Of a stretch of DNA of 64,000 bases, positions 21,339-64,000 are shown piece after piece. The notes beneath the pieces are model-generated. The model did no database searches, was not told where the DNA came from, and was given only the letters and a program-made list of their open reading frames with translations. The DNA comes from Variovorax paradoxus (lineage in GTDB: Bacteria; Pseudomonadota; Gammaproteobacteria; Burkholderiales; Burkholderiaceae_C), in assembly GCA_016806145.1 (NCBI GenBank), contig CP063166.1:4216001-4280000 (forward strand). Direction: 5' to 3'. Both the position numbers and the translations under genes were made by a program. How positions within the stretch are numbered: position 1 is the stretch's first letter; each line of letters starts with the position of its first letter.

Positions 21339-24300
21339 TCACCACTTCACGCGAACGCCTACCCCCGCATTGACCGAGCTGCCCACGCGAGCGACGCCGC
21401 CCGAGGCCCACTGCTTGCCGAGCTCGCCATACAGGCTCGTGCGCTGGCTCAGTGCCAGCGTGAAGCCTGCTGCCAGTTCCGTGCTCGTGCCGCCGATCGG
21501 TGCGCCCACCGGCGTGATCGCCGCCGGGTTCACGAAGCGCGCGATGTCGTTGCCCTTCGAGCTGCGGTAGACGTTGAGGCGCGCATAGGGCTGCAGCGTG
21601 CCCGCGCTTGTCGCGAAGCTGCCCTTGATGCGCACACCAGCGCGTGCGGTCCAGCTGCTGTCGGCGTCCTGCTGCACCAGCGCACCGGGAATCGCCACGT
21701 CGTCCAGGCGCAGGCGCTGGTGGATCAGCTGCAGCTGCGGCTCCACCGACCAGCCGCCCGTGCCGAGCGCAAAGGCCTTGCCGACCTCGATCGAGGCCAG
21801 GAAGCTGTTGCCCTTGCCCGTGACACCGGCGCTCAGTTGCGGCTGCACCGTGTAGCGATGGCGGCCGGCCTGCAGCACCGTGTCGGCATAGAAGCCGTCA
21901 TCGCTCGTGAAGGTGCCGTACAGGCCCAGGTACTGGCTGCGCAGGTCGTTGCGGCCTGCAGCGCCGTTCAGGAGGCCGCTGCTGAAGCCACTGACACGCG
22001 TATCGCCTTCGAGCTGGCCGACATAGATGCCCGCGCGCCAGTTCGCATTGGCCCACAGGTCGGTACCTGCCTGCAGCCCGCTCACGCGGCCCTCGGCATG
22101 CGGCGAGACGGTGCCGCCCTGGCGGATGTCCATGTCGGTGGAGATCAGACGGCCCCAGGCTCGGCGGTTGCCGCCGTCCACGCTCGTGGTGCTTGCACCG
22201 CCGCTGCCGCGCACGTCGTCGTCGCCGATGCGCTGGCTCAGGCTGGCCAGCATGCCGAGGTTGCTTTGGCGCAGTTGGTTCGGCAGGGCTGCGAAGAGGG
22301 AGGCCTCAGCGCGGTACGTCGGCAGCGAGGCGCCCGGCTCCGCTTCGGTGCGCAGGTACCAGTTCTCGCCCTCGCCGCCCGCATCGCCCGCGTACAGGCG
22401 GTACTCGTAGGCACCGGCGTCAACGCGACCGCCCGAGAGCACGAAGGCGTCCTTGCTGGTTTGCGCGGTGGTGGTCGCGCCGTTCTTCGCGCTGATCAGC
22501 TCGATGCCTGCGCCGCTGGTGCGTGCGCCCAGGCCGCCGAGGTTGGTGACCTGCACCGTGGTCTTGCCGCTGGCGGATGCGGTGGCGCCGTCGAGCACCA
22601 GGCGGTCTGCGATGCCGGGGTTGTCGAGCTTCGCGCCGAGGCGAAGCACGCCGTTGTTGCCGACGTAGGGGCCAGTCAAGGTCAAGGTCGTGCCTGGGAC
22701 GGTGCCGAGCAAGGAGACCGTGCCCGCGTTGGTCAGGCCGGTCATCTTCTGGCTGAAGCCGCCGAGGTCGAGCGTGGCGCCGCTGGCGACCACAGCGCTC
22801 GATGCGGCGCTGAAGGCGTTGGTCGCGCCGGCCTTCAAGGTGCCTGCTGCGATGCGGGTCTCTCCGCTATAGCTGGACGTGCCCGACAGCGTGAGCGTGC
22901 CTGCGCCAACCTTGACGAGCGAGCCCGTCGTGCCGGTGATGGCGCCCGAGATCGTGTTGTCAGTGCCGAGAGCACCGGTGGTCAGCGTCTTGGTGCCGAG
23001 CACCACATCGCCTGCACCACCAAGCGAGCCGATGCTCGTGCCCGTGGTCGTCAAATCGATGCGCACTTGGCCACCCGCTGCATTGGTCACCGTGGCGCCT
23101 GCAGCGCTCGCGATGTCTTGCAGTCGCAAGGTGCCTGCATTGGCGATAGCGAGCTTGCCCGCGTCCGCCTTGCCACCAAACTGCAACGTGGCGCCCGATG
23201 CAACGCTTGCCGCGCCGCTGCCGAGTGCGCCTGTCACTTCGGTGGCGAGCGTACCCGCATCTACCAGCGTGCCACCGCTGTAGCTGTTGGCGCTGCTCAA
23301 GGTCAAGGTGCCCGTGCCGATCTTGCGCAGCTTGCCCGTGCCGCTCATCGTGCCCGCATAGGTGCCCGCCGTCTTGCCCTGGTCGAAGGCGACCTCCGCG
23401 TTGTTGACGATATTGCCTTGCAGGCTCGTCGCACTGCCCTGCAGCACGCCGCCCTTGACGGTGGTACCCCCGGTGTAGGTATTGGCACCGCCCAGGATCA
23501 GTCGGCCCGCATCCTCCTTCGAGATACCGCCCGTGCCGCTGAGCGCCACATTGAGGGTTGCGGTCATGGTCGCACCTGCAGCCGTGCCATCCCCCACGCG
23601 GATCACCGAGTTGGCGTTGTCCACCACGATGCCGTCACCCTGCACCACATAGCCATCGGTGGCGAACTGCGCACCGGCGATGCGCACCGCGCCGCCAGCC
23701 GCATCCACCGTCACGGTGCCGGCCTTGCCGCCGAACACCGCGAACTGGTTCTGCGCCCAGTTGGCGTTGAGCTTGCCGTCCATGTCGGACCAGGCATCCA
23801 TCGAGGGCTGCGGGTTGCCCACGCGCCAGGTGCCCGAGCCGCCGGCGATCTGACCGTCGTTGTACTTGGTGCTGTCGCCACCATCCCAGAAGTTCAGCGA
23901 CAGGCCCGCGCGGTTCACCAGGTTCACTTGGTTCGCCACCGAAGTCTGCACCTGCAGGTCCGCCACCTTGGCCGAGCCCGGCACTGTACCGATGTCCAGG
24001 CCGTTGTCGGTGAAGCTGCCGCCGTAGCTCATGAGCCTGTAGAGGCCAGGGCCGAAGCTGCCGCCCGCGGATTGCGCGATGTTCAGCGTGCCGTCTAGGT
24101 TCAGGTTGCCCGTCACGTTGATCAGGTCGTTGAGCGCGCCGCCAGGAACGCCGGCCTGGCCCAACTCGTAGTTGAGCGTGGAGCCGCCCGCGAGCGTGAG
24201 CGCACCGAGCGTCAGCGTGCCCGGGCTGTTGCCCGCAGCGAGGATGCCGCCCTTGTCGATGGTCACCGCGCCAGCGATGCTGCCGCTGCCCGCAAGGGTC

Positions 24301-27300
24301 GCGCCGCTCTGGACCAGCACCGCGCCCGTGCCCGTCGCACTGCCGCTCTTGTTGTTCACGCTCAGCGTGCCCGCGCCCACCGTGGTGCCACCGGTATAGG
24401 TGTTGGCACCGGTCAGCGTCAGCGTGCCAGTCCCCACCTTGACGAGCGCGCCACCCGTACCGCCGATCGTGCCCGACAGCGTGCTGTTGGCATTCAATCC
24501 GCCGAGCGTGAGCGCCTTCGCGCCCAGCGCGATGTCGCCCGCGCCACCGAGGGTGCCGATGCTCACGCCCGTCGTGGCCTGGTCGATGCGCACCTGCGCA
24601 CCGGACGCGTTGCTCACCGTGGCCTTGTCGGCCGTCGCGTCGTCCGCGAAGGCCAGCACGGCGCCCGAGGCATTGACGAGGCTGGCGCTGCCCGCGCTCG
24701 CGTTGCCTTGCAGGCGCACCGTGCCGCTGTTGGCGACCGACAGGCTTCCCAGGTCGGCCTTGCCGCCGAACTGCAGCGTGGCGCCCGAGGCCACGCTCGC
24801 CGCGCCGCTGCCGAGGGCTCCGGTCACGTCGGTGGCCAGCGTGCCCGCGTCGACGAAGGTGCCGCCTGCGTAGCTGTTCGCGCTGGTCAGGGTCAACGTG
24901 CCCGTGCCGATCTTGCGCAGCTTGCCCGTACCGCTCATCGCGCCGGCATAGCTGCCGGCCTTGGCTTGGTCGAACACGACCTCGGCGTCGTTGACGATGC
25001 CGCCTTGCAGGCTCGCCGTGTTGCCTTGCAGCACGCCGGCCTTCACGGTCGTGCCGCCGGTGTAGGTGTTGGTGCCGCCGAGGATCAGGCGACCCACGTC
25101 GTCCTTCACCAGGCCACCGGCGCCGGTCAGCGCGACGTTCACCGTAGCGCTGCGCGTGACATCGGTACCCGACCCATCGCCCACGCGCACCACCGACCCC
25201 GAAGCACCAAGCTCGATCGCATCGCCCTGCAGCACATACCCATCGGCCGCGAACTGCGCGCCGTTGATGCGCACCGTGCCGCCCGCATTGCTGACCGTGA
25301 CCGTGCCACCCGTGCCGCCGAACACCGCGAACTGATCCTGCGCCCAGGCCGCGTTGATCTTGCCGTCCGCACCGGTCCAACCGTCTCCGGGCACACCGAC
25401 ACGCCAGGTTCCATTGCCCCCGGCGACCTTGCCGTCGTTGTACTTCGTGTTGTCGCCACCATCCCAGAAGTTCAGCGACAGGCCCGCGCGGTTCACCAGA
25501 TTGACCTGCTGCGCCACCGAGGTCTGCACCTGCAGATCCTTGGCCGCGATCGGCGCGCTGCCGATGTCCAGGCCGTTGTCGGTCAGGCTGCCGGTGTAGT
25601 CGATCAGGCGATAGATGCCCGCGCCGAACACGCCGCCCTTCGATTGCGCCACGTTGAGCGTGCCGTCGAGCTGGAGGTTGCCATTGACCTGCACACGGTC
25701 ATTGAGCGCACCACCGACGGTGTTGGCCTGGCCCAGGTCGTAGTTGAGCACTGCGCCGTCAGCGAGATTCAGGCCGCCGAGCGTCAGCGTGCCGACGCCG
25801 CCATTGCCCGCCGACAGGATGCCGCCCTTGGCGATGCTGACCGCACCGCCCACGCTGCCGTTGCCCGCGAGCATGGCGCCGGACGCGACTTGCACGCCGC
25901 CGGTGCCCGTCGCACTGCCGCTCGCGTTGTTCACCGCGAGCGCGCCGCCCGCCACCGTCGTGCCACCGGTGTAGGTATTGGCGCCGATCAGGTCGAGCGT
26001 GCCGCTGCCCACCTTCACGACCGAGCCACCGTTGCCGCTGATCACGCCCGACACGGTCGTGCTCGTGTTCAGTCCACCCGTGGTCAGCGCCTTCGCGCCC
26101 AGCAGCACATCGCCCGCGCCGCCAAGAGCGCCAACATTCACACCAACGCTCGCCTGGTCGATGCGCACCTGCGCCCCGGCCTGGTTCAGCACCGTGGCCT
26201 TGTTCGCCGAAGCGTCGTCCGCGAAGGCCAGCACGCCGCCCGCGGCGTTGGTGAGGGTCGACGTGCCCGCGCTAGCCTTGTCCTGGAAGCGCACCGTGCC
26301 CTGGTTGCCGATGGCCGTGGTGCCGGCATCGAAACCGCCACCCAGTTGCAGCGTGGCCCCCGCGGCCACGCTGGCCGCGCCGCTGCCGAGCGCACCGGTC
26401 ACGTCAGTGGTCAAGGTGCCCGCGTCGACGAAGGTGCCGCCGGCATACGCATTGGCCGCGCCGAGCCGCAAGCTGCCCGCGCCGATCTTGCGCAGGCTGC
26501 CCGCGCCGCTCACGCTGCCGTTGAGCGCCAGCGTGCGGGCCGCGTCGACGTCGAAGCGGTTGCTGCCCGCCCCCAGGCTCACCGTACGCGCACTGGCGAT
26601 GTCGCCCGTCACGCGCAAGGTGGTGCCTTCGAGCGCGAGGCCGCCCGCCGCGGCGCCGAGGTTGGCGTCCGACGCGATCTGCAGGATGCCGCCCTTGATG
26701 GTCGTGCCGCCGCTGTAGCTGTTGCTGCCGTCCAGCACCAGCGTGCCGAGGTCGTCCTTGACCAGGCCGCCCGCGCCGGTCAGCGAAGACGCAATGGTCG
26801 CGGTCATGCCCGTGCCGGCGTTGGTGCCATCGCCCACGCGCACGGTGGTCGCTGCATTGCCGAGCTCGATCTCGTCGCCCTGCACGCGGTAGCCGTTGGT
26901 GGCGAACTGCGCACCGTTGATGCGCACCGTGCCGCCCGCGTTGCTGACCGTCACCGTGCCGGCGCTGCCGCCGAACACCGCGAACTGTCCCTGCGCCCAC
27001 GCCGCGTTGATCTTGCCGTCGGCACCGGTCCAGCCATCGCCCGGCACGCCCACGCGCCAGGTGCCGTTGCCGCCGGCCACCAGGCCGTCGTTGTACTTGC
27101 TCGCGTCGCTGCCGTCCCAGAAGTTCAGCGACAGGCCCGCGCGGTTGACCAGGTTGACCTGCTGCGCCACCGAGGTCTGCACCTGCAGGTCGGCCGCAGC
27201 ACCCGGTGCGGTGCCGATGTCGAGACCGTTGTCCGTCAGGCTGCCCGTGTAGCTGATGAGCCGGTAAAGGCCCGCGCCGAAGCTGCCGCCCGCGGACTGC

Positions 27301-30300
27301 GCCACGTTGAGCGTGCCGTCGAGCTGCAGGTTGCCGTTGACGTTGACGAGGTCGTTGAGCGGGCCACCCACGGTGTTGGCCTGGCCCAGGTCGTAGTTGA
27401 GCACCGCGCCATCGGCGAGGCTCAGGCTGCCGAGCGTCAGCGTGCCCACGCCCCCATTGCCGGCCGACAGCACACCGCCCTTGGCGATGTTCACGGCACC
27501 GGCGATGCTGCCATTGCCGGCCAGCGTCGCGCCGCCCTGGATCTGCACCGTGCCCGTGCCGGTCGCGCTGCCGCTCGCGTTGTTGGCCGCGAGCGTGCCG
27601 CCCGCCACCGTGGTGCCACCGGTGTAGGTATTGGCGCCACTCAGCGAGAGCGTGCCGCTGCCGACCTTCACGACCGAGCCGCCGCCGCCGCCGCCGCCGC
27701 CGCCGCTGATCGTGCCCGACACCGTCGTGCTCGTGTTCAAGCCGCCCGTGGTCAGCGCCTTGGCGCCGAGGAATACGTCACCTGCGCCTTCGAGCGAGCC
27801 GATGCCCACGCCCGCATTCGTGAGGCTGCCGATGCGCAGCTGCCCGCCCGCGTTGTTCACCACCGTCGCCTGGTCCGCGCTCGTGCGGTCCGCGAAGCTG
27901 ATCACACCGCCGTTCTCGTTGACCAGTCGTGCCTGGCCCGCGCTCGCGTCGTCGAGCAGGTCGATGCGACCGCCCGCGAAGTTCGTGATCCGAGCCTTGC
28001 CGCCCTCCGCGTTGAACCACAGCGTGGTCGAGCCACCGCGGTTCTCGATCACCGAGCTGCCCGCGCTCGCGCTGTCGCGGAACTCGACCGACGCGTCCTG
28101 GTTCGCCGTGATGGTCGCGTTGCCGGCCGAGCTGCTGTCGCGGAAAGCGACGAAGCCGCCGTTGTCGGTCGGTGCACTGCCGCGCTTGGCCAAGGTGATC
28201 GCGAGCTTGCCCGCGTCGGCCGTGTTGGTGAAGGCCAGCGAGGCATTTCCCGCCACCGACACCGCTCCCGTGCCCAGCGCATCCGTGACCAGGGCCTCGA
28301 CCGAGCCCGCGGCGACGTCCGTGCCGCCCACGTAGGCATTGGCCGAGCCGAGTTGCAGGGTGCCCGTGCCGGTCTTGCGCAGGCTGCCTGCGCCGCTGAC
28401 CATGCCGTTCAGCGCGACGGTCTTGTCGATGTCGAAGTTGTTGCTGCCAGCGCCCAGGCTCACCGCGCGCTTGCTCGCGGTGTCGCCGGTCACATGCAGC
28501 GTGGTGCCTTCGAGTGCGAGGCTACCTGCGGCCGCACCGAGGTTCGCATCCGATGCGATCTGCAGCACGCCGCCCTTGATGGTGGTACCGCCGCTGTAGC
28601 TGTTGCCGCCCTCGAGCACCAGCGTTCCCAGGTCTTCCTTGACCAGGCTGCCCGCGCCGGTCAGCGACGACGCGATGGTCGCGGTCATGCCGGCACCAGC
28701 CGCACTGCCGTCGCCCACGCGCACGGTGGTCGCCGCAGTGCCCAGTTCGATCGCATCGCCCTGCAAGCGGTAACCGTTGGTGGCGAACTGCGCACCGGTG
28801 ATGCGCACCGTGCCGTTGCCATCGTCCACGTCGACGGTGCCGGCGCTGCTGCCGAACACCGCGAACTGGTCTTGCACCCAGGCCGCATTGATCTTGCCGT
28901 CGGCACCGGTCCACCCATCGCCCGGCACGCCCACGCGCCAGGTGCCGCTACCGCCGGCCACCTGGCCATCGTTGTACTTGCTGCTGTCGCCACCGTCCCA
29001 GAAGTTCAACGACAAGCCTGCGCGATTGACCAGGTTGACCTGTTGGGCCACCGAAGTCTGGACCTGCAGATCGGTCTTGGCGCTCGGCGTGCTGCCGATG
29101 TCGAGACCGTTGTCGGTCAGACCACCGGTGTAGTTGATCAGCCGGTAGATGCCCGCACCGAACTTGCCGCCGGCCGTCTCTGCCACATTGAGCGTGCCGT
29201 CGAGTTGCAGGTTGCCATTGACGTTGACGAGGTCGTTGAGCGCACCGCCGGCAACACCGGCCTGGCCCAAGTCGTAGTTGAGCACTGCGCCATCGGCCAG
29301 GCTCAGACCGCCCAGCGTCAGCGTGCCCGCACCGCCATTGCCCGCGGAAAGCACGCCGCCCTTGGCGACGTTCACGGCACCCGCGATGCTGCCCGTACCC
29401 GCGAGCGTGGCACCCGACTGCACCAGCACCGCACCCGCGCCGGTCGCGCTGCCGCTGGCGTTGCTCGCGCTCAGTGTGCCGCCCGTCACCGTCGTGCCAC
29501 CGGTGTAGCTGTTGGCGCCGGTGAGCGTCAGCGTCCCGCTGCCCACCTTGACGACCGAACCGTCCGCACCGCCGATCGTTCCCGATACCGTCGTGCTGGT
29601 GTTCAGCCCACCGGTGGTCAGCGCCTTGGCGCCCAGCAGTACGTTGCCCGCGCCATCGAGTGCGCCGACGTTCACGCCCGTGGTCGCCTGGTCGATGCGC
29701 AGTTGCGCACCGGCCTGGTTGAGCACCTTGGCCTTGGTGGCCGATGCGTCGTCCGCGAAGGCCAGCACGCCGCCCGCGGCATTCGTGATGGTCGAGGTGC
29801 CCGCGCTTGCCTTGTCCTGGAAGCGCACGGTGCCCTGGTTGCCGATCGCTGTGCTGCCGGCGTCGAATGCGCCATCCAGTTGCAGCGTGGCACCAGATGC
29901 CACGCTCGCCGCGCCGCTGCCGAGCGCGCCAGCCACGCCGGTGGCCAGCGTTCCCACGTCGACGAAAGTACCGCCGGCGTGGTTGTTGGCCGCGCCGAGC
30001 CGCAAAGTGCCCGCGCCGATCTTGCGCAGGCTCCCCGCGCCACTTACCGCGCCGTTGAGCGCCAGCGTGCGAGCCGCGTCGATGTCGAAGCTGTTGCTGC
30101 CTGTACCCAGACTCACGGTGCGGGTGCCAGCGCTGTCGCCGGTCACGTGCAGAGTGGTGCCTTCGAGCGCGAGGCCGCCCGTGGCCGCGCCGAGGTTCGC
30201 ATCCGATGCGATCTGCAGGACCCCGCCCTTGATGGTGGTTCCGCCCGCATAGCTGCTGGTGCCGCCCAGCACCAGCGTGCCGAGGTCTTCCTTCACCAAT

Positions 30301-33300
30301 CCGCCCGCGCCAGTCAGCGAAGACGCGATGGTCGCGGTCATGCCAGCACCGGCGTTCGTGCCATCGCCCACGCGCACGGTGGTGGCCGCGCTGCCGAGCG
30401 TGATCGCATCGCCCTGCAGGCGGTAGCCGTTGGTCGCGAACTGCGCACCGGTGATGCGCACGGTGCCATTGGCATCGTCCACGTCGACAGTGCCAGCGAC
30501 ACCACCGAACACCGCGAACTGCCCCTGCGCCCAGGCCGCGTTGATCTTGCCGTCCGCACCGGTCCAGCCATCGCCCGGTATACCCACGCGCCAGGTGCCG
30601 CTGCCGCCGGCCACCAGGCCGTCGTTGTACCTGGTGCTGTCGCCGCCGTCCCAGAAGTTCAGCGACAGGCCCGCGCGATTGACCAGGTTGACCTGCTGGG
30701 CCACCGAGGTCTGCACCTGCAGGTCGGCCGCCGCGCCCGGCGCCGCGCCGATGTCGAGACCGTTGTCGGTCAACCCGCCCGTGTAGTTGATGAGCCGGTA
30801 GATGCCCGCGCCGAACTTGCCGCCGGCCGTCTCGGCCACATTGAGCGTGCCATCGAGCTGCAGGTTGCCGTTGACGTTGACGAGGTCGTTGAGCACGCCG
30901 CCCGCAACGCCCGCCTGTCCCAGGTCGTAGTTGAGCACCGCACCTTCGGCCAGGCTCAGGCCGCCCAGCGTCAGCGTGCCCGCGCCGCCATTGCCCGCGG
31001 ACAGCACGCCGCCCTTGGCAACGTTCACCGTCCCCGCGATGCTGCCGGTGCCCGCCAGCGTGGCACCCGACTGCACCTGCACGGCGCCCGTGCCGGTTGC
31101 GCTGCCGCTTGCATTGTTCGCGGCCAGCGTGCCGCCCGCCACGATGGTCGCGCCGGTGTAGGTGTTCGCGCCGCTCAGCTCGAGCGCGCCATTGCCCACC
31201 TTGATGACGGAGCCGCCGGCGCCGCCGATCGTGCCCGACACCGTGGTGCTGGCGTTCAGCCCACCGGTCGTCAGCGCCTTCGCGCCCAGCAGCACGTCGC
31301 CCGCGCCATCGAGTGCGCCGACGTTCACGCCCGCTGTCGACTGGTCGATGCGCAGTTGCGCGCCGGCCTGGTTGAGCACCGTGGCCTTGGTGGCCGATGC
31401 GTCGTCCGCGAAGGCCAGCACGCTGCCCTTGGCATTCGTGATGGTGGACGTGCCCGCGCTGGCCTTGTCCTGGAAGCGCACGGTGCCCTGGTTGCCGATG
31501 GCCGTGGTGCCGGCGTCGAATGCGCCATCCAGTTGCAAGGTGGCGCCCGAAGCCACGCTCGCTGCGCCGCTGCCAAGTGAACCGGTCACGTCGGTGGCCA
31601 GCGTGCCGACATCGACGAAGGTACCGCCCGCGTAGTTGTTGGCAGCGCCGAGCCGCAAGGTGCCCGCGCCGATCTTGCGCAGGCTGCCCGTGCCGCTGAC
31701 AGTGCCGTTCAGCGCGACGGTCTTGTCGATGTCGAAGTTGTTGCTGCCCGCGCCCAGGCTCACGGTGCGTGTGCCGACGGTGTCACCCGTCACATGCAGA
31801 GTGGTGCCCTCGAGCGCGAGCCCGCCGACGGCCGCGCCGAGATTTGCATCGGATGCGATCTGCAGCACGCCGCCCTTGATGGTGGTACCGCCGCTGTAGC
31901 TGTTGCTGCCATCGAGCACCAGCGTGCCCAGATCTTCCTTGACCAATCCGCCCGCGCCGGTCAGCGACGACGCGATGGTCGCGGTCATGCCGGCACCGGC
32001 CGCGCTGCCGTCACCGACGCGCACCGTGGTCGCTGCAGAGCCCAGCTCGATCGCATCGCCCTGCACGCGATAGCCGTTGGTCGCGAACTGCGCACCGGTG
32101 ATGCGCACGGTGCCGTTGTCGTCGTTGACGTCGACGGTGCCGGCGCTGCTGCCGAACACCGCGAACTGGCCCTGGGCCCAGGCCGCGTTGATCTTGCCGT
32201 CGGCGCCAGTCCAGCCGTCGCCTGGAACGCCCACACGCCAGGTGCCGTTGCCGCCAGCTACCTGGCCATCGTTGTACTTGCTTGCGTCGCCGCCGTCCCA
32301 GAAGTTCAATGACAGGCCCGCGCGATTGACCAGGTTGACTTGCTGGGCCACCGAAGTCTGGACCTGCAGGTCGGTCTTGGCGCTCGGCGTGCTGCCGATG
32401 TCGAGACCGTTGTCGGTCAAGCCACCGGTGTAGTTGATGAGTCTGTAGATACCCGCGCCAAACACCCCGCCCTTCGACTGCGCCACATTGAGCGTGCCGT
32501 CGAGCTGCAGGTTGCCGTTGACGTTGACGAGGTCGTTGAGCGCACCACCGGCAACACCGGCCTGGCCCAGGTCGTAGTTGAGCACCGCGCCATCGGACAA
32601 GTTCAAGCTGCCAACCGTCAGCGTGCCCGCACCGCCATTGCCCGCGGACAGCACACCGCCCTTCGCGATGTTCACCGCGCCCGCAATGCTGCCGGTGCCC
32701 GCGAGCGTGGCACCCGACTGCACTTGCACCGCCCCGCTACCGGTCGCGCTGCCGCCCGTGTTGTTCGCGGCCAGCGTGCCGCCCGTCACCGTCGTGCCGC
32801 CGGTGTAGGTGTTGGCACCGCTCAGCGAGAGCGTGCCGCTGCCCACCTTGATGACTGAGCCACCCGCGCCACTGACCGTGCCAGACAGCGTCGTGCTGGT
32901 GTTAAGCCCGCCCGTGGTCAGCACCTTCGCGCCCAGCAGCACGTTGCCCGCGCCGCTGACCGCACCGACGTTCACGCCGGTTGTCGCCTGGTCGATGCGC
33001 AGCTGCGCGCCCGATTGGTTGAGCACCGTGGCCTTGTTGGCCGATGCGTCGTCCGCGAAGGCCAGCACGCCACCCTTGGCATTGGTGATCGTCGAGGTGC
33101 CCGCGTTCGTCTTGTCCTGGAAGCGCACCGTGCCCTGATTGCCGATCGCCGTGGTTCCGGCATCGAAGCCGCCATCCAGTTGCAAGGTGGCGCCCGAAGC
33201 CACGCTCGCCGCGCCGCTGCCCAGAGCGCCCGTCACGCCAGTGGCCAATGTGCCCGCGTCGACGAAGGTGCCGCCCACGTAGCCATTGGCCGCACCGAGC

Positions 33301-42017: not shown

Positions 42018-42214
42018 CAACGGTTCTCCGTGGGCCGTGCGCGCAAGGTGCCTCGGCAAAGATCAGATCGGGAGCGGCAGGCGGGAGGCGCGGTCATTCC
42101 CATGCGTGGCGCACGGGCGCCAGGCGTGATGCCGCGCCGGGAATGGATGAAGAAGCCGGGCACGGCCCATGCAGCCGACGACCGCGGGTCGATGGCTGGC
42201 GTGCTGCTTTTCAT
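42017..42214 (-). CDS. Leader ORF upstream of AT1 (65 codons), coupled to the autotransporter start
   Basis: A short ORF starting MKSSTPAIDPRSSAAW and ending LRARPTENR. AGGAGGAG lies 5 nt before its ATG, a better ribosome binding site than that of the autotransporter. Its TGA overlaps the ATG of AT1 (TGATG). AT2 is preceded by a homologue of 52 codons with the same ends; the length difference is exactly 39 nt, keeping frame. No hydrophobic segment or known domain is seen. Most substitutions between the copies change amino acids, so the peptide itself may matter less than the act of translating it. It is either a small protein or a coupling leader. Confidence 0.6.
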   Translation of the reverse strand: MKSSTPAIDPRSSAAWAVPGFFIHSRRGITPGARAPRMGMTAPPACRSRSDLCRGTLRARPTENR

Positions 42215-42330: not shown

Positions 42331-42393
42331 GCAACGGACGGCGAAAACACTCCCGAAAACCGTGGGCTCGCCGCAAGAAAAGGCATCGAACGA

Positions 42394-42421: not shown

Positions 42422-42422
42422 C

Positions 42423-43169
42423 TCACGGCTCGATGCGCGCGTCGGCCTGGAAGCTGTAGCCCTCGCCGCGCACCGCGACGATCGGCAGCTTCTCGCCGCA
42501 GGCTTGCTCGGCCTTGCGGCGCAGCCGCGAGACCGTGACGTCGAGGTTGCGCTCGTAGGCCTCGAGCCCGGGGCGGCCCATCGCCGCGAGCAGCGTGGCA
42601 CGGTCCACCACCTCGCGCGGCTGCTCGATCAGGCACTGCAGCAGGCGCGCTTCCGCACTCGACAACTGCACGCGTTCGCCGGCCGGCGACAGCAGCAGCC
42701 AGGTGGTGTAGTGATAGCGCCATGGCGCATGCTCGGCGATGTCGCCGGCCTCCGTCGCCGTGGTCGACTGTGGGTCGCGCGCGCCCTGCACCTGCGTTTC
42801 CTGGCTGCGCTGCAGCAGGTTGTTGAGCACCATCTCGAGCTCGCGCAGGTTCACCGGCTTGACCAGGTAGTAATCGGCGCCAAGCCCGAGTCCATGCAGG
42901 CGATCGTTGAGCATGCCGCGCGCGGTCAGCATCACGATGCGCATCGCACTGCGCGAGCGCAGGCGCGCCAACACGCTGAAGCCATCCTCACCGGGCAGGT
43001 TGACGTCGCACACCACGGCATCGAAGTCCTGCCGCTCGAGCTCCGCATCGAGCATCTCGGCGCTCTCGAGTCCGTGCGCGAGCATGCCGACACCGCGCAG
43101 GTAGCGCAGCACCGTGTCGCGCAGGTCGTCATCGTCCTCGATGACCAGCACGCGGGTCGCGGCATTCAT
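42423..43169 (-). CDS. OmpR/PhoB-type response regulator 1
   Basis: A 248-residue two-domain regulator. The receiver domain (1-120) has the acidic pocket EDDDD (11-15), phosphoacceptor D55 (VVCDVNLPGEDGF), T82 (VMLTARG) and K104 (YYLVKPVN). The C-terminal winged helix (about 145-245) reads VQLSSAEARLLQCLIEQP, LLAAMGRPGLEAYERNLDV, TVSRLRRKAEQACG and VRGEGYSF, an OmpR/PhoB DNA-binding domain. The ATG overlaps the kinase stop by 4 bp. Its probable targets are the 20-bp boxes upstream of kinase and autotransporter genes. Its DNA-binding domain is almost identical to that of regulator 2, while the linker (about 113-145) differs. Confidence 0.93.
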   Translation of the reverse strand: MNAATRVLVIEDDDDLRDTVLRYLRGVGMLAHGLESAEMLDAELERQDFDAVVCDVNLPGEDGFSVLARLRSRSAMRIVMLTARGMLNDRLHGLGLGADYYLVKPVNLRELEMVLNNLLQRSQETQVQGARDPQSTTATEAGDIAEHAPWRYHYTTWLLLSPAGERVQLSSAEARLLQCLIEQPREVVDRATLLAAMGRPGLEAYERNLDVTVSRLRRKAEQACGEKLPIVAVRGEGYSFQADARIEP

Positions 43170-45401: not shown

Positions 45402-45421
45402 ATTACACCTTGCTTTTTCTT
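45402..45421 (-). promoter_or_regulatory. Conserved 20-bp box upstream of kinase 1
   Basis: The minus strand reads AAGAAAAAGCAAGGTGTAAT, 74-93 bp before the kinase 1 ATG, within the 161-bp gap after AT2. With the preceding base it gives the repeat GAAAG-N5-GCAAG. About 45 nt downstream of the box are conserved with the kinase 2 leader (CGCGGCCGCGCCCC then GAATCCGATGCG). TGTAAT at the end of the box also resembles a -10 element, so the box may overlap the promoter itself. The gap has GC-rich repeats near 45450-45480 but no clear terminator. Confidence 0.65.
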
Positions 45422-45489
45422 TCGACCGCAAGGTGGCGCCAAGCGTCATGCATCGGGCCGCGGGCGCGAACCGCCGGCCCCGCACGCCG

Positions 45490-57345: not shown

Positions 57346-57503
57346 CAACGGTTCTCCGTGGGCCGGGCGCGCAAGGCGCCGTGGCAAGAAATCAGATCGA
57401 GAGCGCCGGCAAGGGATCTGCCGGGCCGGGAATCAATGAGGAAGCCGGGCACGGCCAATGCAGCCGACGACCGCAGGTCGATGGCTGGCGTGCTTGTCTT
57501 CAT
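57345..57503 (-). CDS. Leader ORF upstream of AT2 (52 codons), coupled to the autotransporter start
   Basis: A homologue of the AT1 leader ORF. It starts MKTSTPAIDLRSSAAL, ends LRARPTENR, and its TGA overlaps the AT2 ATG (TGATG). AGGAGGAG precedes its ATG with 5-6 nt spacing. It is 13 codons shorter than the AT1 copy, the gap lying in the middle. No signal peptide or domain is recognisable. Its conservation of start signal, ends and stop overlap argues that ribosomes reach the autotransporter start through it. Confidence 0.6.
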   Translation of the reverse strand: MKTSTPAIDLRSSAALAVPGFLIDSRPGRSLAGALDLISCHGALRARPTENR

Positions 57504-57600: not shown

Positions 57601-57620
57601 TTTGCACCTTACTTTTTCTT
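57601..57620 (-). promoter_or_regulatory. Conserved 20-bp box upstream of leader-AT2
   Basis: The minus strand reads AAGAAAAAGTAAGGTGCAAA, identical to the AT1 box, 98-117 bp before the leader ATG. It is flanked by TTGCA and TGCAA, which form an extra inverted pair present at both autotransporters but not at the kinase genes. Between this box and the regulator 2 stop (57621-57711) a small CACGG-TTTT-CCGTG hairpin is the only other structure seen. Confidence 0.7.
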
Positions 57621-57711
57621 GCAATGAACGATGCAACGCTCACGGAAAACCGTGGCTTCGACGGCAAAGGAATGCATTGGTTCTCGTATCGCGCGGCCGT
57701 GCGCGCCGCGC

Positions 57712-58449
57712 TCACGGCTCGATGCGCGCGTCGGCCTGGAAGCTGTAGCCCTCGCCGCGCACCGCGACGATCGGCAGCTTCTCGCCGCAGGCCTGCTCGG
57801 CCTTGCGGCGCAGTCGCGAGACGGTGACATCGAGGTTGCGCTCGTAGGCTTCGAGCCCGGGGCGGCCCATCGCCGCGAGCAGCGCGGCGCGGCCCACCAC
57901 TTCGCGCGGCAGTTCGAGCAGGCACAGCAGCAGCCGCGCTTCCGCGCTCGACAACTGCACGCGGGCGCCGGCCGGCGACAGCAGCAGCCAGGTGGTGGCG
58001 TGATAGCGCCAGGGCGCGAGTACGGCGCTTTCAGGCACTGCATCGGGACCGGGTTCGCGCGTGTCCTGCCCCTGTGCTTCCTGGCTGCGCTGCAGCAGGT
58101 TGTTGAGCACCATCTCGAGCTCGCGCAGGTTCACCGGCTTGACCAGGTAGTAGTCGGCGCCAAGCCCGAGTCCATGCAGGCGATCGTCGAGCATGCCGCG
58201 CGCGGTCAGCATCACGATGCGCATGGCGCTGCGCGAGCGCAGGCGCGCCAGCACGCTGAAGCCATCCTCGCCCGGCAGGTTGACGTCGCACACCACGGCA
58301 TCGAAGTCCTGCCGCTCGAGTTCCGCATCGAGCATCTCGGCGCTCTCGAGTCCGCGCGCGAGCATGCCGACGCCGCGCAGGTAGCGCAGCACCGTGTCAC
58401 GCAGGTCGTCGTCGTCCTCGATCACCAGCACCCGCGTTGCGACGCTCAT
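57712..58449 (-). CDS. OmpR/PhoB-type response regulator 2
   Basis: A 245-residue paralogue of regulator 1. The receiver domain has D55 (VVCDVNLPGEDGF), T82 and K104 at the same positions. The winged helix contains the identical block YERNLDVTVSRLRRKAEQAC and VRGEGYSF, so both regulators should recognise the same DNA. The linker after residue 113 (RSQEAQGQDTREPGPDAV) differs and is three residues shorter. The ATG overlaps the kinase 2 stop by 4 bp. It is the gene immediately upstream of leader-AT2. Confidence 0.93.
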   Translation of the reverse strand: MSVATRVLVIEDDDDLRDTVLRYLRGVGMLARGLESAEMLDAELERQDFDAVVCDVNLPGEDGFSVLARLRSRSAMRIVMLTARGMLDDRLHGLGLGADYYLVKPVNLRELEMVLNNLLQRSQEAQGQDTREPGPDAVPESAVLAPWRYHATTWLLLSPAGARVQLSSAEARLLLCLLELPREVVGRAALLAAMGRPGLEAYERNLDVTVSRLRRKAEQACGEKLPIVAVRGEGYSFQADARIEP

Positions 58450-60638
58450 CCACAGCCCTCCGGGGCTGGCGTTGCCACGCGCCTTCCGCCTCGGCCCTCC
58501 GCCGGCTCGGCGCTGCCGAGCAGCGGCAGGGTGAGGGTCAGCACCGCGCCCTCGCGGGCGCCGTTCGAGGCGACCACGCTGCCGCCATGGACCGTGGCGA
58601 TGCGGTGCACCATGTGCAGGCCCAGCCCGATGCCCGGGATGCGCCGCACGCCGGCCGCGCGGTAGAAGCGCTCGAACACATGCGTGAGGTCCTGCGGCAT
58701 GAAGCCCGGGCCCTCGTCGCACACCTGGATGCAGACGCCCGGTATCGCGTCGCCTTCCGGAAAGTCGTCGGAACGGCAGCGCCGGATGCCGGCGCGCACG
58801 CGCACCGGCGAATGGGCCGGCGCGTACTTGATGGCGTTGGTCAACAGGTTGTCCATCGCGATGTGCATCAGCGTCTCGTCCGCGAGCACCGGCAGCGCGT
58901 GCGCGTCGAGCTGCAGCGAGATGCGGCCGCCCGCCGCGCCTTCGTTGTGCTCCGCGATCTTCTCGCGCAGGAAGACGGCGAGCTCGAGCGGCGCCAGGTG
59001 CAGGTTGTTGCTCGAGGCATCGAGCCATTCGTCGGCCAGCAGGGTGTCGACCAGATCGCGCATGCGATAGACCGTGCGGCTGATCTTCTCGGCCTCCTTC
59101 CTGACCTCCTCGCGCGCCAGGCCGAGCCGGTCGTCCGAGAGGATCTGCGCGGCGCCGCCGATCGTTCCCAGCGGGGTGCGGAACTCGTGCGACACCATGG
59201 CCAGCAGGCCGCGCTGCTCGCGCAGCGCCAGCGCCAGCTGGTCGTGCGTGCGATGGTGCTCCGTGATCTCCTGGCGCAGGTCGCGCGTGCGCTCGTTCAC
59301 GCGCTGCGCGAGGCGTGCGCGATGCCGCAGCGACAGCGTGAGCGCGCGCCGCTCGCGCTGCCGCACGCGCCAGCCCAGCGCGAAGAAGAAGGCCATGATG
59401 TGCAGGATGCTGGCGATCGCGTAGCTGTACTGGGTGGCGCGGTTGTAGGGCAGCCATTGCAGGTTCTTCGCGAAGTGCACCGCGCCCATCATGAAATAGA
59501 TCGCATAGCCGACCATCCCGGGCCAGGCCTGGACGTTCCGGCGCAGCACGAGGGCGCACATCGGCACGATGCAGGCCGCGAAGACCACCCACAGCATGTT
59601 CAGTGGCCGCGCGATGAACCCGTACCCACCGGCGATGGCGATCCCGCAACCCGCGAGGCACAGAAAAGCCATCAGCTGGAACACGCGGCTCATGCGCGGG
59701 AACTGCCGGTCCATGTCGAGCAGCACCCGCGCGAACGCGAAGGCGGCCGCCGTGTGCAGGCAGACCGAGAAGTTGTGCAGGCGGACGGCGGCCAATGGAT
59801 GGTCGTGCAGCCACAGGGTCGCGGGCATGCCCTCCGAACTCGCGAACAGCAATCCGAGCGTGACGAGGTAGCCCGCGTAGGCAACGAAGCGGCGATCGGG
59901 CAGCGCGATGCCCATCATCAGGCTCACCACCGCGATCAGCAGGGCCATGCCGACGATGGCCGCGTCCGCGAAGTTGAACTCCTGTTGCACCCCGGCCAAC
60001 TCGCGCAGTGGCGACACGCCACCCGCGAGGCTCAGCGAACGGTCACCCGCGAGCCGTACCCAGACCCAGCGCGGCTCGGTGTCGTGCAGCTCGGGCAGCC
60101 GCGTCGCCGGGATCGACCAGGGCATCTCGCGCCTGGAACCCGCGCGCATGCCCCCGAGCTCCCGGTGGGTGAAGCCACCTTCGGCATCGGGCCACCACAC
60201 GTCGAGGTAGTCGACATAGGGCGCATTGAGCCGCAGCCACCAGCCGCTCTCGACCGGTCGTTCGACCTGCTCGGGCGAGGCCTCGATCCGGAAGCGCACC
60301 CACCACGCGCCCCGCGCATAGCCGCCATTGAAGGCGCCCGGCAGCGTCTCGAATCGCGACTGGTAGTCGGGCGATGCCACCTGCGCGTGCGTCAGCAGGC
60401 CGGCCTTGTCGTGATAGGCCTGCAGGCGTCCGACGAAGTTTCGCTCGAGGATGCCCAACGAGGCATCGAGCTTCAGCGGCTCCACTTGCGCGTGGCTCGG
60501 AAACGCCAGGCACGCCAGCAGCAACGCTGCGAGCCCGATGAGCCCACGGATTTCCGTGACACGCATGGCGAGCCACGACCCGAGGCGCGTCACGCATGAC
60601 GCGATGAAGATAGTGGCCGTCCGAGTCCTCGAATTCAT
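58446..60638 (-). CDS. 7TMR-DISM sensor histidine kinase 2
   Basis: A 730-residue paralogue of kinase 1 with the same order: signal peptide (longer here, ending AFPSHAQ), 7TMR-DISMED2 periplasmic domain (YARGAWWVRFRIEASPEQV, WWLRLNAPYVDYLDVWWPD), seven helices, HisKA (MVSHEFRTPLGTI) and HATPase (DNLLTNAIKYAP, DEGPGFM, GIGLGLHM). Differences from kinase 1 gather in the signal region, the middle transmembrane helices and an insertion in the ATPase lid region (RRCRSDDFPEGDAIPG), while catalytic blocks are the same. Its gene overlaps regulator 2 by 4 bp. The start at 60638 is MNSRTRTAT; an upstream ATG at 60650 (MKPRMNSR) is possible. Confidence 0.92.
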   Translation of the reverse strand: MNSRTRTATIFIASCVTRLGSWLAMRVTEIRGLIGLAALLLACLAFPSHAQVEPLKLDASLGILERNFVGRLQAYHDKAGLLTHAQVASPDYQSRFETLPGAFNGGYARGAWWVRFRIEASPEQVERPVESGWWLRLNAPYVDYLDVWWPDAEGGFTHRELGGMRAGSRREMPWSIPATRLPELHDTEPRWVWVRLAGDRSLSLAGGVSPLRELAGVQQEFNFADAAIVGMALLIAVVSLMMGIALPDRRFVAYAGYLVTLGLLFASSEGMPATLWLHDHPLAAVRLHNFSVCLHTAAAFAFARVLLDMDRQFPRMSRVFQLMAFLCLAGCGIAIAGGYGFIARPLNMLWVVFAACIVPMCALVLRRNVQAWPGMVGYAIYFMMGAVHFAKNLQWLPYNRATQYSYAIASILHIMAFFFALGWRVRQRERRALTLSLRHRARLAQRVNERTRDLRQEITEHHRTHDQLALALREQRGLLAMVSHEFRTPLGTIGGAAQILSDDRLGLAREEVRKEAEKISRTVYRMRDLVDTLLADEWLDASSNNLHLAPLELAVFLREKIAEHNEGAAGGRISLQLDAHALPVLADETLMHIAMDNLLTNAIKYAPAHSPVRVRAGIRRCRSDDFPEGDAIPGVCIQVCDEGPGFMPQDLTHVFERFYRAAGVRRIPGIGLGLHMVHRIATVHGGSVVASNGAREGAVLTLTLPLLGSAEPAEGRGGRRVATPAPEGCG

Positions 60639-60710: not shown

Positions 60711-60730
60711 ATTGCATCTTGCTTTTTCTT
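60711..60730 (-). promoter_or_regulatory. Conserved 20-bp box upstream of kinase 2
   Basis: The minus strand reads AAGAAAAAGCAAGATGCAAT, 73-92 bp before the kinase 2 ATG, in the 138-bp gap after AT3. It differs from the kinase 1 box at two positions (G/A and T/C). The GAAAG-N5-GCAAG repeat and the conserved downstream CGCGGCCGCGCCCC are present. Confidence 0.65.
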
Positions 60731-60731
60731 T

Positions 60732-60753
60732 CATCCGCGAGCTTGCGCGGATG
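60732..60753 (-). other. Hairpin between AT3 stop and the kinase 2 box
   Basis: CATCCGCG-CAAGCT-CGCGGATG forms a perfect 8-bp stem with a 6-nt loop, 24 bp past the AT3 stop and immediately upstream of the box. On the minus strand it is followed by an A-rich tract, not T-rich, so it is not a standard intrinsic terminator; it may still end or process the AT3 mRNA. Confidence 0.4.
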
Positions 60754-60776
60754 CGAGCGGCCGGCCCTTTGCATCG

Positions 60777-63700
60777 TCACCACTTCACGCGCACACCCAC
60801 CCCTGCATTGACCGAGCTGCCCACGCGAGCGACGCCGCCCGAGGCCCACTGCTTGCCGAGCTCGCCATACAGGCTCGTGCGCTGGCTCAGCGCCAGCGTG
60901 AAGCCTGCTGCCAGCTCGGTGCTCGTGCCACCGATCGGCGCGCCCACCGGCGTGATCGCCGCCGGGTTGACGAAGCGCGCGATGTCGTTGCCCTTCGAGC
61001 TGCGATAGACGTTCAGGCGCGCATACGGCTGCAGCGTGCCCGCGCTTGTCGCGAAGCTGCCCTTGATGCGAACGCCCGCGCGTGCGGTCCAGCTGCTGTC
61101 GGCGTCCTGCTGCACCAGCGCACCCGGGATCGCCACGTCGTCCAGGCGCAGGCGCTGGTGGATCAGCTGCAGCTGCGGCTCCACCGACCAGCCGCCCGTG
61201 CCCAGCGCGAAGGCCTTGCCGACCTCGATCGAGGCCAGGAAGCTGTTGCCCTTGCCCGTGACGCCGGCGCTCAGTTGCGGCTGCACCGTGTAGCGATGGC
61301 GGCCGGCCTGCAGCACCGTGTCGGCATAGAAGCCGTCGTCGCTCGTGAAGGTGCCGTACAGGCCCAGGTACTGGCTGCGCAGGTCGTTGCGGCCTGCAGC
61401 GCCGTTCAGGAGGCCGCTGCTGAAGCCACTGACACGCGTATCGCCTTCGAGCTGGCCGACATAGATGCCCGCGCGCCAGTTCGCATTGGCCCACAGGTCG
61501 GTACCTGCCTGCAGCCCGCTCACGCGGCCCTCGGCATGCGGCGAGACGGTGCCTCCCTGGCGGATGTCCATGTCGGTGGAGATCAGACGGCCCCAGGCGC
61601 GGCGGTTGCCGCCGTCGATGCTCGAGCTCGCACCGCCGCTGCCGCGTACGTCGTCGTCGCCGATGCGCTGGCTCAGGCTTGCGAGCATGCCGAGGTTGCT
61701 TTGGCGCAGTTGGTTCGGCAGAGCTGCGAAGAGCGAGGCTTCGGCGCGGTAGGTCGGCAGCGAGGCACCGGGTTCTGCTTCGGTGCGCAGGTACCAGTTC
61801 TCGCCCTCGCCGCCCGCATCGCCCGCGTACAGGCGGTACTCGTAGGCACCGGCGTCGACGCGGCCGCCCGAGAGCACGAAGGCGTCCTTGCTGGTTTGCG
61901 CGGTGGTGGTGGCGCCGTTCTTCGCGCTGATCAGTTCGATGCCCGCGCCGCTGGTGCGGGCGCCCAGGCCGCCTAGGTTGGTGACCTGCACTGTCGTCTT
62001 GCCGCTGGCGGATGCGGTGGCGCCGTCGAGCACCAGGCGGTCTGCGATGCCGGGGTTGTCGAGCTTCGCACCGAGGCGCAGCACGCCGTTGTTGCCGACG
62101 TAGGGGCCGGTCAAGGTAAGCGTGGTGCCTGGGACCGTGCCGAGCAGGGCGACCGTGCCGGCGTTGGTCAGGCCGGCCATCTTCTGGCTGAAGCCGCCGA
62201 GGTCGAGCGTGGCGCCGCTGGCGACCACAGCGCTCGATGCGGCGCTGAAGGCGTTGGTCGCGCCAGCCTTCAAGGTGCCTGCGGTCACGCGGGTCTCGCC
62301 TGCGTAGTTCGCCGTACCTGAGAGCGTGAGCGTGCCTGCGCCAACCTTGACGAGCGAGCCCGTCGTGCCGGTGATGGCGCCGGAGATCGTGTTGTCAGTG
62401 CCGAGCGCACCGGTGGTCAGCGCCTTGGTGCCAAGCACCACGTCGCCCGCTCCGCTCAGGGCACCGATGCTCGTGCCCGTGGTCGTCAGATCGATGCGCA
62501 CCTGGCCACCCGCTGCATTGGTCACCGTGGCGCCTGCAGCGCTCGCGGTGTCTTGCAGACGCAAGGTGCCTGCATTGGCGATCGCGAGCTTGCCCGCATC
62601 GGCCTTGCCGCCGAACTGCAGTGCTGCCCCCGAAGCAATGCTGACCGCGCCTGTTCCCAGTGCGCCCGTGGTGTCGGTCGTCAACGTGCCTGCATCCACC
62701 AACGTGCCGCCGCTGTAGCTGTTGGCGCTGCTCAAGGTCAAGGTGCCCGTGCCGATCTTGCGCAGCTTGCCCGTGCCGCTCATCACGCCTGCATAGGTAC
62801 CGGCCGTCTTGCCTTGGTCGAAGGCCACCTCCGCGTTGTTGACGATATTGCCCTGCAGACTCGTCGCGCTGCCCTGCAGCACACCGCCCTTGACGGTGGT
62901 ACCCCCGGTGTAGGTATTGGCACCGCCCAGGATCAGTCGGCCGGCATCCTCCTTCGAGATACCGCCCGTGCCGCTGAGCGCAACATTGAGCGTGGCCGTC
63001 ATGGTCGCACCGGCAGCCGTGCCGTCGCCCACGCGGATCACCGAGTTGGCGCTATCCACCACGATGCCGTCACCCTGCACCACATAGCCATCGGTGGCGA
63101 ACTGCGCACCCGCGATGCGCACCGCACCACCAGCCGCATCCACCGTCACGGTGCCAGCCTTGCCGCCGAACACCGCGAACTGGTTCTGCGCCCAGTTGCC
63201 GTTGAGCTTGCCGTCCATGTCGGCCCAGGCATCCATCGAGGGCTGCGGATTGCCCACGCGCCAGGTACCCGAGCCGCCGGCGATCTGGCCGTCGTTGTAC
63301 TTCGTGCTGTCGCCACCGTCCCAGAAGTTCAGCGACAGGCCCGCGCGGTTCACCAGATTGACCTGGTTCGCCACCGAGGTCTGCACCTGCAGGTCGGCCA
63401 CCTTCGCAGAGCCGGGCACCGTGCCGATGTCCAGGCCGTTGTCGGTGAAGCTGCCGCCGTAGCTCATGAGCCTGTAGAGGCCAGGGCCGAAGCTGCCGCC
63501 CGCCGACTGCGCGACGTTCAAGGTGCCATCGAGTTGCAGGTTGCCGGTGACGTTGATCAGGTCGTTGAGCGCGCCGCCTGGAACACCGGCCTGGCCGAGT
63601 TCGTAGTTCAGCGTGGAGCCGCCGGCCAGGGTCAGTGCGCCCAGGGTCAGCGTGCCAGGGCTGTTACCCGCAGCGAGGATGCCGCCCTTGTCGATGGTCA

Positions 63701-64000
63701 CCGCGCCCGCGATGCTGCCGCTGCCCGCAAGGGTCGCGCCGCTCTGGACCAGCACCGCGCCCGTACCTGTCGCGCTGCCGCTCTTGTTGTTCACGCTCAG
63801 CGTGCCCGCGCCCACGGTGGTGCCGCCGGTGTAGGTGTTGGCGCCCGTGAGCGTCAGCGTGCCAGCGCCCACCTTGACGACCGATCCGCCATTGCCGCTG
63901 ATCGTGCCCGACAGCGTGGTGCTGTCGCCGCTCGCGCCCAGCGTGAGCGCCTTGGCGCCGAGCACGAACTCGCCCGCGCCGCTCAGCGAGCCGAAGCTCA
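60777..64000 (-). CDS. Giant autotransporter AT3, C-terminal part (N-terminus beyond the window)
   Basis: An open frame enters from the right edge and ends at 60777. The visible 1074 residues comprise the last passenger segments (GANTYTGGTTV, LNFWDGGDSTKYNDGQIAGG, GTWRVGNPQPS) and a complete autotransporter beta-domain (YRAEASLFAALPNQLRQS to VGVRVKW). It parallels the C-terminal blocks of AT1 and AT2 (3058 bp from the border at 63835). The residues just inside the right edge (KALTLGASGDSTTLSG) differ from the equivalent D unit in AT1 and AT2, so its passenger composition is its own. It lies directly upstream of kinase 2 and is the third copy in the tandem series. Its own leader and regulators are expected to the right. 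Confidence 0.92.
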   Translation of the reverse strand, partial: SFGSLSGAGEFVLGAKALTLGASGDSTTLSGTISGNGGSVVKVGAGTLTLTGANTYTGGTTVGAGTLSVNNKSGSATGTGAVLVQSGATLAGSGSIAGAVTIDKGGILAAGNSPGTLTLGALTLAGGSTLNYELGQAGVPGGALNDLINVTGNLQLDGTLNVAQSAGGSFGPGLYRLMSYGGSFTDNGLDIGTVPGSAKVADLQVQTSVANQVNLVNRAGLSLNFWDGGDSTKYNDGQIAGGSGTWRVGNPQPSMDAWADMDGKLNGNWAQNQFAVFGGKAGTVTVDAAGGAVRIAGAQFATDGYVVQGDGIVVDSANSVIRVGDGTAAGATMTATLNVALSGTGGISKEDAGRLILGGANTYTGGTTVKGGVLQGSATSLQGNIVNNAEVAFDQGKTAGTYAGVMSGTGKLRKIGTGTLTLSSANSYSGGTLVDAGTLTTDTTGALGTGAVSIASGAALQFGGKADAGKLAIANAGTLRLQDTASAAGATVTNAAGGQVRIDLTTTGTSIGALSGAGDVVLGTKALTTGALGTDNTISGAITGTTGSLVKVGAGTLTLSGTANYAGETRVTAGTLKAGATNAFSAASSAVVASGATLDLGGFSQKMAGLTNAGTVALLGTVPGTTLTLTGPYVGNNGVLRLGAKLDNPGIADRLVLDGATASASGKTTVQVTNLGGLGARTSGAGIELISAKNGATTTAQTSKDAFVLSGGRVDAGAYEYRLYAGDAGGEGENWYLRTEAEPGASLPTYRAEASLFAALPNQLRQSNLGMLASLSQRIGDDDVRGSGGASSSIDGGNRRAWGRLISTDMDIRQGGTVSPHAEGRVSGLQAGTDLWANANWRAGIYVGQLEGDTRVSGFSSGLLNGAAGRNDLRSQYLGLYGTFTSDDGFYADTVLQAGRHRYTVQPQLSAGVTGKGNSFLASIEVGKAFALGTGGWSVEPQLQLIHQRLRLDDVAIPGALVQQDADSSWTARAGVRIKGSFATSAGTLQPYARLNVYRSSKGNDIARFVNPAAITPVGAPIGGTSTELAAGFTLALSQRTSLYGELGKQWASGGVARVGSSVNAGVGVRVKW

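Follow-up and report, generated by a model that had tools for sequence, protein, structure and literature searches.

Tandem sensor kinase, response regulator and giant autotransporter genes in Variovorax and a promoter box predicted to link them to a small secreted regulon

In a 64,000-nucleotide stretch of the Variovorax paradoxus genome (the window; C1:4216001-4280000 of a 9.44-Mb, three-contig genome), genes for a sensor kinase (K), a response regulator (RR) and a giant autotransporter (AT) occur twice in succession downstream of a third autotransporter gene, raising the question of how such an array arose and whether its two regulatory pairs act separately or jointly. Each of the component classes (giant PATR autotransporters, 7TMR-DISM kinases, OmpR regulators) has been described before; the tandem K-RR-AT array, its promoter box and the corresponding regulon are, to our knowledge, undescribed. 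Comparison across 101 Variovorax genomes (this one and 100 others of the genus) suggests that K and RR probably form an autoregulated LadS-like two-component system that activates its autotransporter together with a small secreted regulon.

The tandem array and its duplication

The tandem K-RR-AT array is real. All seven large genes lie on the minus strand, in the order given by an initial annotation of the window and borne out by gene mapping and Pfam classes, and the transcription order is AT3, K2, RR2, leader 2, AT2, K1, RR1, leader 1, AT1. The features are:

60777..64000, minus strand: C-terminal part of AT3, which is complete just beyond the window (gene start C1:4291659, whole gene 4960 aa) and is without a box
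60712..60732, minus strand: promoter box GAAAGAAAAAGCAAGATGCAA 5' of K2, with a -10-like CAGAAT at 60694-60689
58446..60638, minus strand: K2, 7TMR-DISM sensor histidine kinase, 730 aa
57712..58449, minus strand: RR2, OmpR/PhoB-type response regulator, 245 aa, start overlapping the K2 stop
57602..57622, minus strand: promoter box GCAAGAAAAAGTAAGGTGCAA 5' of AT2, with a -10-like GAGAAT at 57584-57579
57345..57503, minus strand: leader open reading frame (ORF) 2, 52 aa, with a good ribosome site; stop overlaps the AT2 start (TGATG)
45490..57345, minus strand: AT2, ESPR-PATR autotransporter, 3951 aa, five passenger units
45403..45423, minus strand: promoter box GAAAGAAAAAGCAAGGTGTAA 5' of K1, with a -10-like CGGAAT at 45385-45380
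43166..45328, minus strand: K1, 7TMR-DISM sensor histidine kinase, 720 aa
42423..43169, minus strand: RR1, OmpR/PhoB-type response regulator, 248 aa, start overlapping the K1 stop
42312..42332, minus strand: promoter box GCAAGAAAAAGTAAGGTGCAA 5' of AT1, with a -10-like GAGAAT at 42294-42289
42017..42214, minus strand: leader ORF 1, 65 aa; stop overlaps the AT1 start (TGATG)
21339..42017, minus strand: AT1, ESPR-PATR autotransporter, 6892 aa, ten passenger units

Both kinases matched 7TMR-DISMED2, 7TMR-DISM_7TM, HisKA and HATPase above the Pfam cut-offs, and both regulators matched Response_reg and Trans_reg_C. The kinase stop and regulator start overlap as ATGA in both pairs, and the regulator gene also lies directly 3' of the kinase gene in the nine relatives mapped. 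Asp55, the expected phospho-acceptor, and Lys104 are present in RR1 and RR2. The 7TM domain family matched six places in the genome, including K1 and K2, five of them above the cut-off. A whole-genome search with K1 detected no third full-length homologue, the other 63 matches covering later parts only, mostly the kinase core; the third kinase anticipated by the initial annotation is thus missing. In a fold search with the sensor, all of the best 50 matches listed were kinase structures, which was uninformative on the sensor itself. The kinase was found in 11 of the 101 Variovorax genomes, with two copies in this genome only and one in each of the other ten. Searches across the family (2 of 399 genomes) and the class (1 of 369) returned matches in Variovorax alone. 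Named relatives outside the genus are the Panacagrimonas kinases P0032 and P0037 (~46% identical to K1), which went unmatched in these searches, their genomes being probably outside the sample, and another K1 relative, P0030, bears the name LadS in one source.

AT1 to AT3 show the features of classical (type Va) autotransporters with a PATR passenger. ESPR, PATR and AC_1 were detected in AT2 by hmmscan, whose whole-AT2 listing lacked the barrel; the windowed part of AT3 matched the barrel, PATR and AC_1 families, with an ESPR of its own at the start of the gene; and a genome scan with the barrel family (PF03797) located the barrel in AT1, AT2 and AT3. The signal region and repeats of AT1 were read by eye only. 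The passengers consist of units of ~520-650 aa, ten in AT1, five in AT2 and four in AT3, which are 47-89% alike within one autotransporter. Since units 4 to 8 of AT1 are mutually 78-89% alike, AT1 probably grew by unit gain, and both size and unit number differ widely among the autotransporters.

K1, RR1 and the first 6.9 kb of AT1 align with K2, RR2 and the 5' part of AT2 in a single 10.4-kb alignment at 81% DNA identity, and the 3' ends of AT1 and AT2 share a further 6.5 kb at 91%. K1 and K2 are 84% identical, RR1 and RR2 90%, and both leader ORFs exist, in agreement with the paralogy between modules proposed earlier. Synonymous divergence (dS) between the copies was 0.27 for K, 0.22 for RR, 0.14 for the AT N-terminus and 0.23 for the barrel; over parts of K, RR and AT1/AT2 it ranged within one order (0.14-0.32), with ratios of nonsynonymous to synonymous divergence (dN/dS) well below 1. 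In a tree of 41 kinases, K1, K2 and four proteins from other sources formed a clade of six (97/97), in which K2 grouped with P0013 and then P0006 (100/99) while K1 stood beside P0004 with weak support (82/41); the long outgroup branches flagged (P0027, P0029, P0030 and P0034) all lay outside this clade. Because the parts have similar dS and both kinases fall in one clade, tandem duplication of kinase, regulator, leader and autotransporter as one block is supported, as the initial annotation had proposed, and unrelated sources for the two pairs are contradicted. The kinases of the relatives G063, G023 and G009, whose module lies beside a Bug-type receptor gene, differ from K1 and K2 by a dS of 0.405-0.465, and that of G002 by 0.46-0.54. 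This dS comparison and the positions in the kinase tree suggest that the duplication took place after the Bug-locus relatives had split off and before the sources of P0013 and P0006 did.

A promoter box shared with distant genes

The K-RR operon and the autotransporter gene are each preceded by a box of the form GMAAG-N5-GYAAG-RTGCAA, followed after 17 bp by a -10-like element. All four module promoters carry AAGAAAAAGYAAGRTGYAA, and no other match with 3 or fewer mismatches was found in the window. With 1 mismatch at most, the box was present in 11/11 kinase-bearing and 0/90 kinase-less genomes (Fisher p 6e-15, kinship of genomes ignored), and a reversed-pattern control occurred in 0/101. At up to 2 mismatches, GMAAGAAAAAGYAAGRTGCAA was found in 14/101 genomes, namely the 11 kinase carriers and 3 of the 90 others, again with no match of the reversed control. 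The carriers held 25 such sites, of which 11 precede K, 11 a module autotransporter, 2 a patatin-lectin gene and 1 a solo autotransporter; one more, the K site of G080, was found with a looser pattern, and in it the spacer differs and both half-sites are kept. Across these 26 sites, the half-sites are fixed except for the second base of each, the TG at positions 17-18 and the first two A of the spacer are fixed, and the last three spacer bases vary in 1 to 4 sites. The sole common base on the left side is the T next to the box (24/26), and to the right of the box a hexamer NNNAAT follows at 17 nt in 22/26 sites and at 16 nt in 2, with GAAACT at both patatin sites. Box-like sites in G028 and G018 were set aside, the former lying inside a 486-aa open frame and the latter having an altered half-site.

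Direct repeats one helical turn apart that overlap the -35 region are typical of class II activator promoters of PhoB and OmpR, and a 10-bp repeat suits an OmpR-type regulator. The box region, with its direct repeats at such spacing at the -35 region, looks like a promoter of this kind, and we know of no such box, no literature search for its sequence having been made. Away from the modules, a box at C2:2390915-2390935 precedes a gene matching Patatin and RicinB_lectin_2, and the orthologous gene in G023 (L116, about 3995) is likewise preceded by one. Patatin homologues were found in 23 of the 101 genomes, a 79% orthologue occurring only here and in G023, and only these two have the box there. 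In G063, a box with 1 mismatch precedes a solo ESPR autotransporter located at a distance from the module (L117, about 3905). A short ORF there has a good ribosome site as well.

From this anatomy, synteny and box distribution we infer a signal, binding, activation and, for the array itself, crossing-over. The 7TMR-DISM sensor, fused to HisKA and HATPase as in LadS, would perceive an outside signal and phosphorylate the co-translated OmpR/PhoB-type regulator, which in turn would bind the direct repeat GMAAG-N5-GYAAG abutting the -35-like RTGCAA. The bound regulator may then activate its own K-RR operon as well as a separate promoter driving the short leader ORF and the giant autotransporter and, in some strains, the patatin-lectin or solo autotransporter gene. 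In this genome, two near-identical systems would feed one shared regulon.

Several observations weigh against so close a tie between box and regulator. The kinase-bearing genomes are related, and their co-occurrence with the box does not amount to 11 independent events; the conservation of the box is inflated, the sites having been found by pattern. Moreover, 3 of the 90 kinase-less genomes hold a 2-mismatch site, and in G097 both half-sites are kept (GCAAG-N5-GCAAG; L120, about 4058). With a longer, looser pattern, 5 sites in this genome matched at up to 3 mismatches, and 1 matched the reversed control. In G090, the autotransporter has no box of its own and starts ~120 bp after RR, and no box was found at AT3 or at two unlinked autotransporters with the same barrel.

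As to the leaders, the ORFs of AT1 and AT2 have a one-base overlap with the autotransporter start codon. The leader ORF was rejected as a general feature, the overlap of its stop with the autotransporter start being found only in four relatives and in both copies here; the ORF is in another frame in G023 and terminates sooner in G002, the scan found none in G025 or G080, and G090 offers no autotransporter box to scan from. A conserved 5' hairpin is no more than a lead: in a folding test of six short stretches (five AT leaders and one K leader), z ranged from 1.03 to -1.63 in five and was -2.15 in G025, most scores falling short of significance. An inverted repeat GCGGCA-N9-TGCCGC lies near the expected transcript start of both autotransporters (window 42250-42290 and 57545-57580) and is kept in several relatives, and G025 has a different hairpin there.

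Insertion of AT3 and the shared barrel

The initial annotation took AT3 to imply a further module to its right. The region past position 64000 instead holds the start of AT3, with no kinase or regulator of the K-RR type upstream of it, and then, on the opposite strand, what we take to be a Bug-type receptor gene and a 'TctD-like' regulator, the latter 32% identical to RR1. A different direct repeat at 10-bp spacing, GTTAAC-N4-GTTAAC, was observed just upstream of AT3 (L028, 15081-15097) and is perhaps the site of another regulator.

The surroundings of the kinase were mapped in nine of the ten single-copy genomes, the kinase of G099 being split over two short contigs. The earlier suggestion to look for the module in related genera yielded no kinase match outside Variovorax among the family and class genomes searched. 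Within the genus, a single K-RR-AT module lies beside the same Bug gene in five relatives (G008, G062, G009, G063 and G023). Downstream of the autotransporter, all five have sequence matching the window from 13776 leftwards, beginning with the IclR gene. The left flank in this genome comprises:

13777..21338, no strand assigned: 7.5-kb stretch between the IclR gene and AT1, compared with the module regions of the five relatives
12991..13776, plus strand: IclR-type regulator gene, adjoining the autotransporter downstream in the five relatives and taken as the ancestral left edge of the locus

Four of these relatives have no match to the stretch 13777-21338 in their 40-kb module regions, and the fifth has one of ~560 bp at 65% identity; the stretch encodes a dicarboxylate symporter, two lyases, a GntR regulator, a phosphoesterase and a nucleotidyltransferase.

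The sequence upstream of the Bug gene meets the K promoter box directly in all of the five relatives but G063, where ~2.8 kb intervenes. Here, the Bug upstream sequence (compared by eye) ends short of the box position and is followed by AT3, the box coming only after AT3. Because the junction of the relatives is interrupted in this way, AT3 is, as judged from synteny, an insertion between the Bug gene and the K-RR promoter in this lineage. The ancestral state would have been one K-RR-AT module between the Bug and IclR genes. Since the AT3-K2 and AT2-K1 spacers are alike (1/2000 shuffles, 3.5 standard deviations), the comparison suggests that AT3 was inserted first and that the K-RR-AT block was then duplicated in tandem, most simply by unequal crossing-over between like 3' ends of the autotransporter genes. 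Against this order, the unrelated spacer downstream of a further autotransporter, AT5, equals the raw score (2.0 standard deviations over its own shuffles). Furthermore, the 3' end of AT2 is expected to be nearest that of AT3 under the crossover model, whereas barrel dS is 0.122 between AT1 and AT3 and 0.189 between AT2 and AT3.

The last 300 residues are 97-100% identical among five autotransporters of this genome (AT1 to AT3, one on C2 and AT5 at C1:1889491), while AT1 to AT3 are 83-87% identical over this region to the module autotransporters of the five Bug-locus relatives; two further barrels here reach a similarity of only 69% and about 54%. The unlinked autotransporters at C1:1889491 (AT5) and C2:2153683 carry the barrel type of AT1 to AT3 without the box, and AT3 shares 10.4 kb at 92% with the unlinked copy on C2. 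In the ten other kinase-bearing genomes, 58 stretches matched the barrel family, and the 30 that came as loci were compared, the 28 left out being mostly lower-scoring and able to hide like copies. For the eight module barrels among these 30 loci, the best match was always in another genome and never in their own, seven of them being a module barrel and that of G002 a barrel of G099 on contig C606. The 30-locus comparison thus shows what appears to be one 3' half spread over several passengers in this genome. Among the autotransporters of other genomes compared, the N-terminus of AT3 is nearest to G023 (68%) and those of AT1 and AT2 to G002 (79-81%), and the differing neighbours of N-termini and barrels indicate that passengers and barrels have different histories. 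Gene conversion was not retained as the proven cause of the like barrels: at synonymous sites the barrels (dS 0.12-0.25) have diverged about as much as K, RR and the AT N-terminus (0.14-0.32), and a burst of copying followed by purifying selection could account for the likeness.

Competing explanations and related systems

The initial annotation envisaged alternative giant proteins chosen by signals, each kinase reading its own signal and acting through its own regulator on its own giant autotransporter only. Two complete sensor-regulator pairs with one autotransporter beside each would suit such a coat switch, as would the sensor part of K1 and K2 being more diverged (82% identity) than the kinase core (91%), but several features disfavour it and make it distinctly unlikely. 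The AT1 and AT2 boxes are identical (21/21 bases), RR1 and RR2 agree in every one of their last 56 residues and differ at 4 positions in the first 120, only 3 kinase differences occur in residues 472-545 around the phospho-acceptor His, and dN/dS of the sensor (0.100/0.316) is barely above that of the core (0.041/0.165). With boxes, regulator C-termini, receivers and phospho-acceptor regions so alike, shared control is favoured; cross-talk and a shared regulon are to be expected, both pairs being predicted to act on both promoters, and AT3, which has no box, should lie outside K-RR control. It is improbable, too, that the boxes serve a different regulator or are simply strong promoters, with K-RR regulating something else and the co-occurrence reflecting descent of the whole module. 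The evidence is wholly comparative, and related carriers may have inherited the module or had it moved as a block; yet boxes also lie far from the module, before the patatin-lectin gene in two genomes and the solo autotransporter in a third, boxes at up to 1 mismatch are confined to kinase-bearing genomes, the patatin homologues have a box only where the 79% orthologue is present, and the 10-bp direct repeat fits the regulator class.

A surface-coat role is plausible. The array may be a by-product of recombination, with duplication driven by the giant repeats and matching 3' ends and with extra copies that are redundant, neutral and of no regulatory significance, and this we consider possible though not the likelier outcome. 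The occurrence of two modules in only 1 of 101 genomes, the widely varying autotransporter sizes and unit numbers and the five autotransporters with one barrel type accord with it, whereas the genes are still open after a dS of about 0.14-0.32 at dN/dS well below 1, and K2 has close relatives in other sources, which argues that the copy persisted. More tentatively than the two-component system itself, the locus could be pictured as a self-amplifying surface-coat cassette, in which an autoregulated, lineage-specific K-RR pair drives giant autotransporters and the patatin-lectin through one exclusive box, recombination between the like 3' halves adds K-RR-AT copies and joins a single barrel to different N-terminal passengers, and the duplicated sensors provide a second input.

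In Bordetella, the BvgAS sensor-regulator genes lie beside fhaB, which encodes a large type V surface protein under their control. The present two-component genes likewise adjoin a large type V surface protein, and differ in sensor, regulator class and secretion subtype as well as in forming a tandem array. The DISMED2 and 7TM sensor joined to a histidine kinase resembles that of LadS and RetS of Pseudomonas, for which calcium and mucin glycans, respectively, are reported as signals (PMC7695008). Unlike LadS and RetS, described there as orphan kinases acting via GacS (PMC7695008), K1 and K2 are each encoded next to an overlapping OmpR-type regulator gene. The BigE/BrkA group of giant autotransporters in Betaproteobacteria, with a BigE relative listed in Variovorax paradoxus S110, is similar in architecture, as very long classical autotransporters grown by passenger-unit replication; the term two-component is absent from the main text of that report (PMC3419190). 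Periscope proteins also vary in length by repeat number, the PATR autotransporter ShdA with 4-6 repeats being an example (PMC9704523), whereas the far from highly identical units found here set AT1 to AT3 apart from them. A search of the open-access literature, most subscription journals lying outside it, found no paper treating 7TMR-DISM together with an autotransporter.

The full module has so far been found only in Variovorax, where a giant surface-protein locus can be seen in stages, from one module in relatives through an inserted autotransporter to tandem duplication, and it may allow tests of how a bacterial surface coat is enlarged and rewired. The compact regulon, with its predicted regulator, site and targets, likewise offers a testable case in an environmental bacterium. 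Among the functions of Variovorax that a 2026 study reports as enriched in the endosphere of Populus deltoides, autotransporters and patatin-like phospholipases appear together (PMC12911387); these are the two target classes of the box, though not necessarily the same genes.

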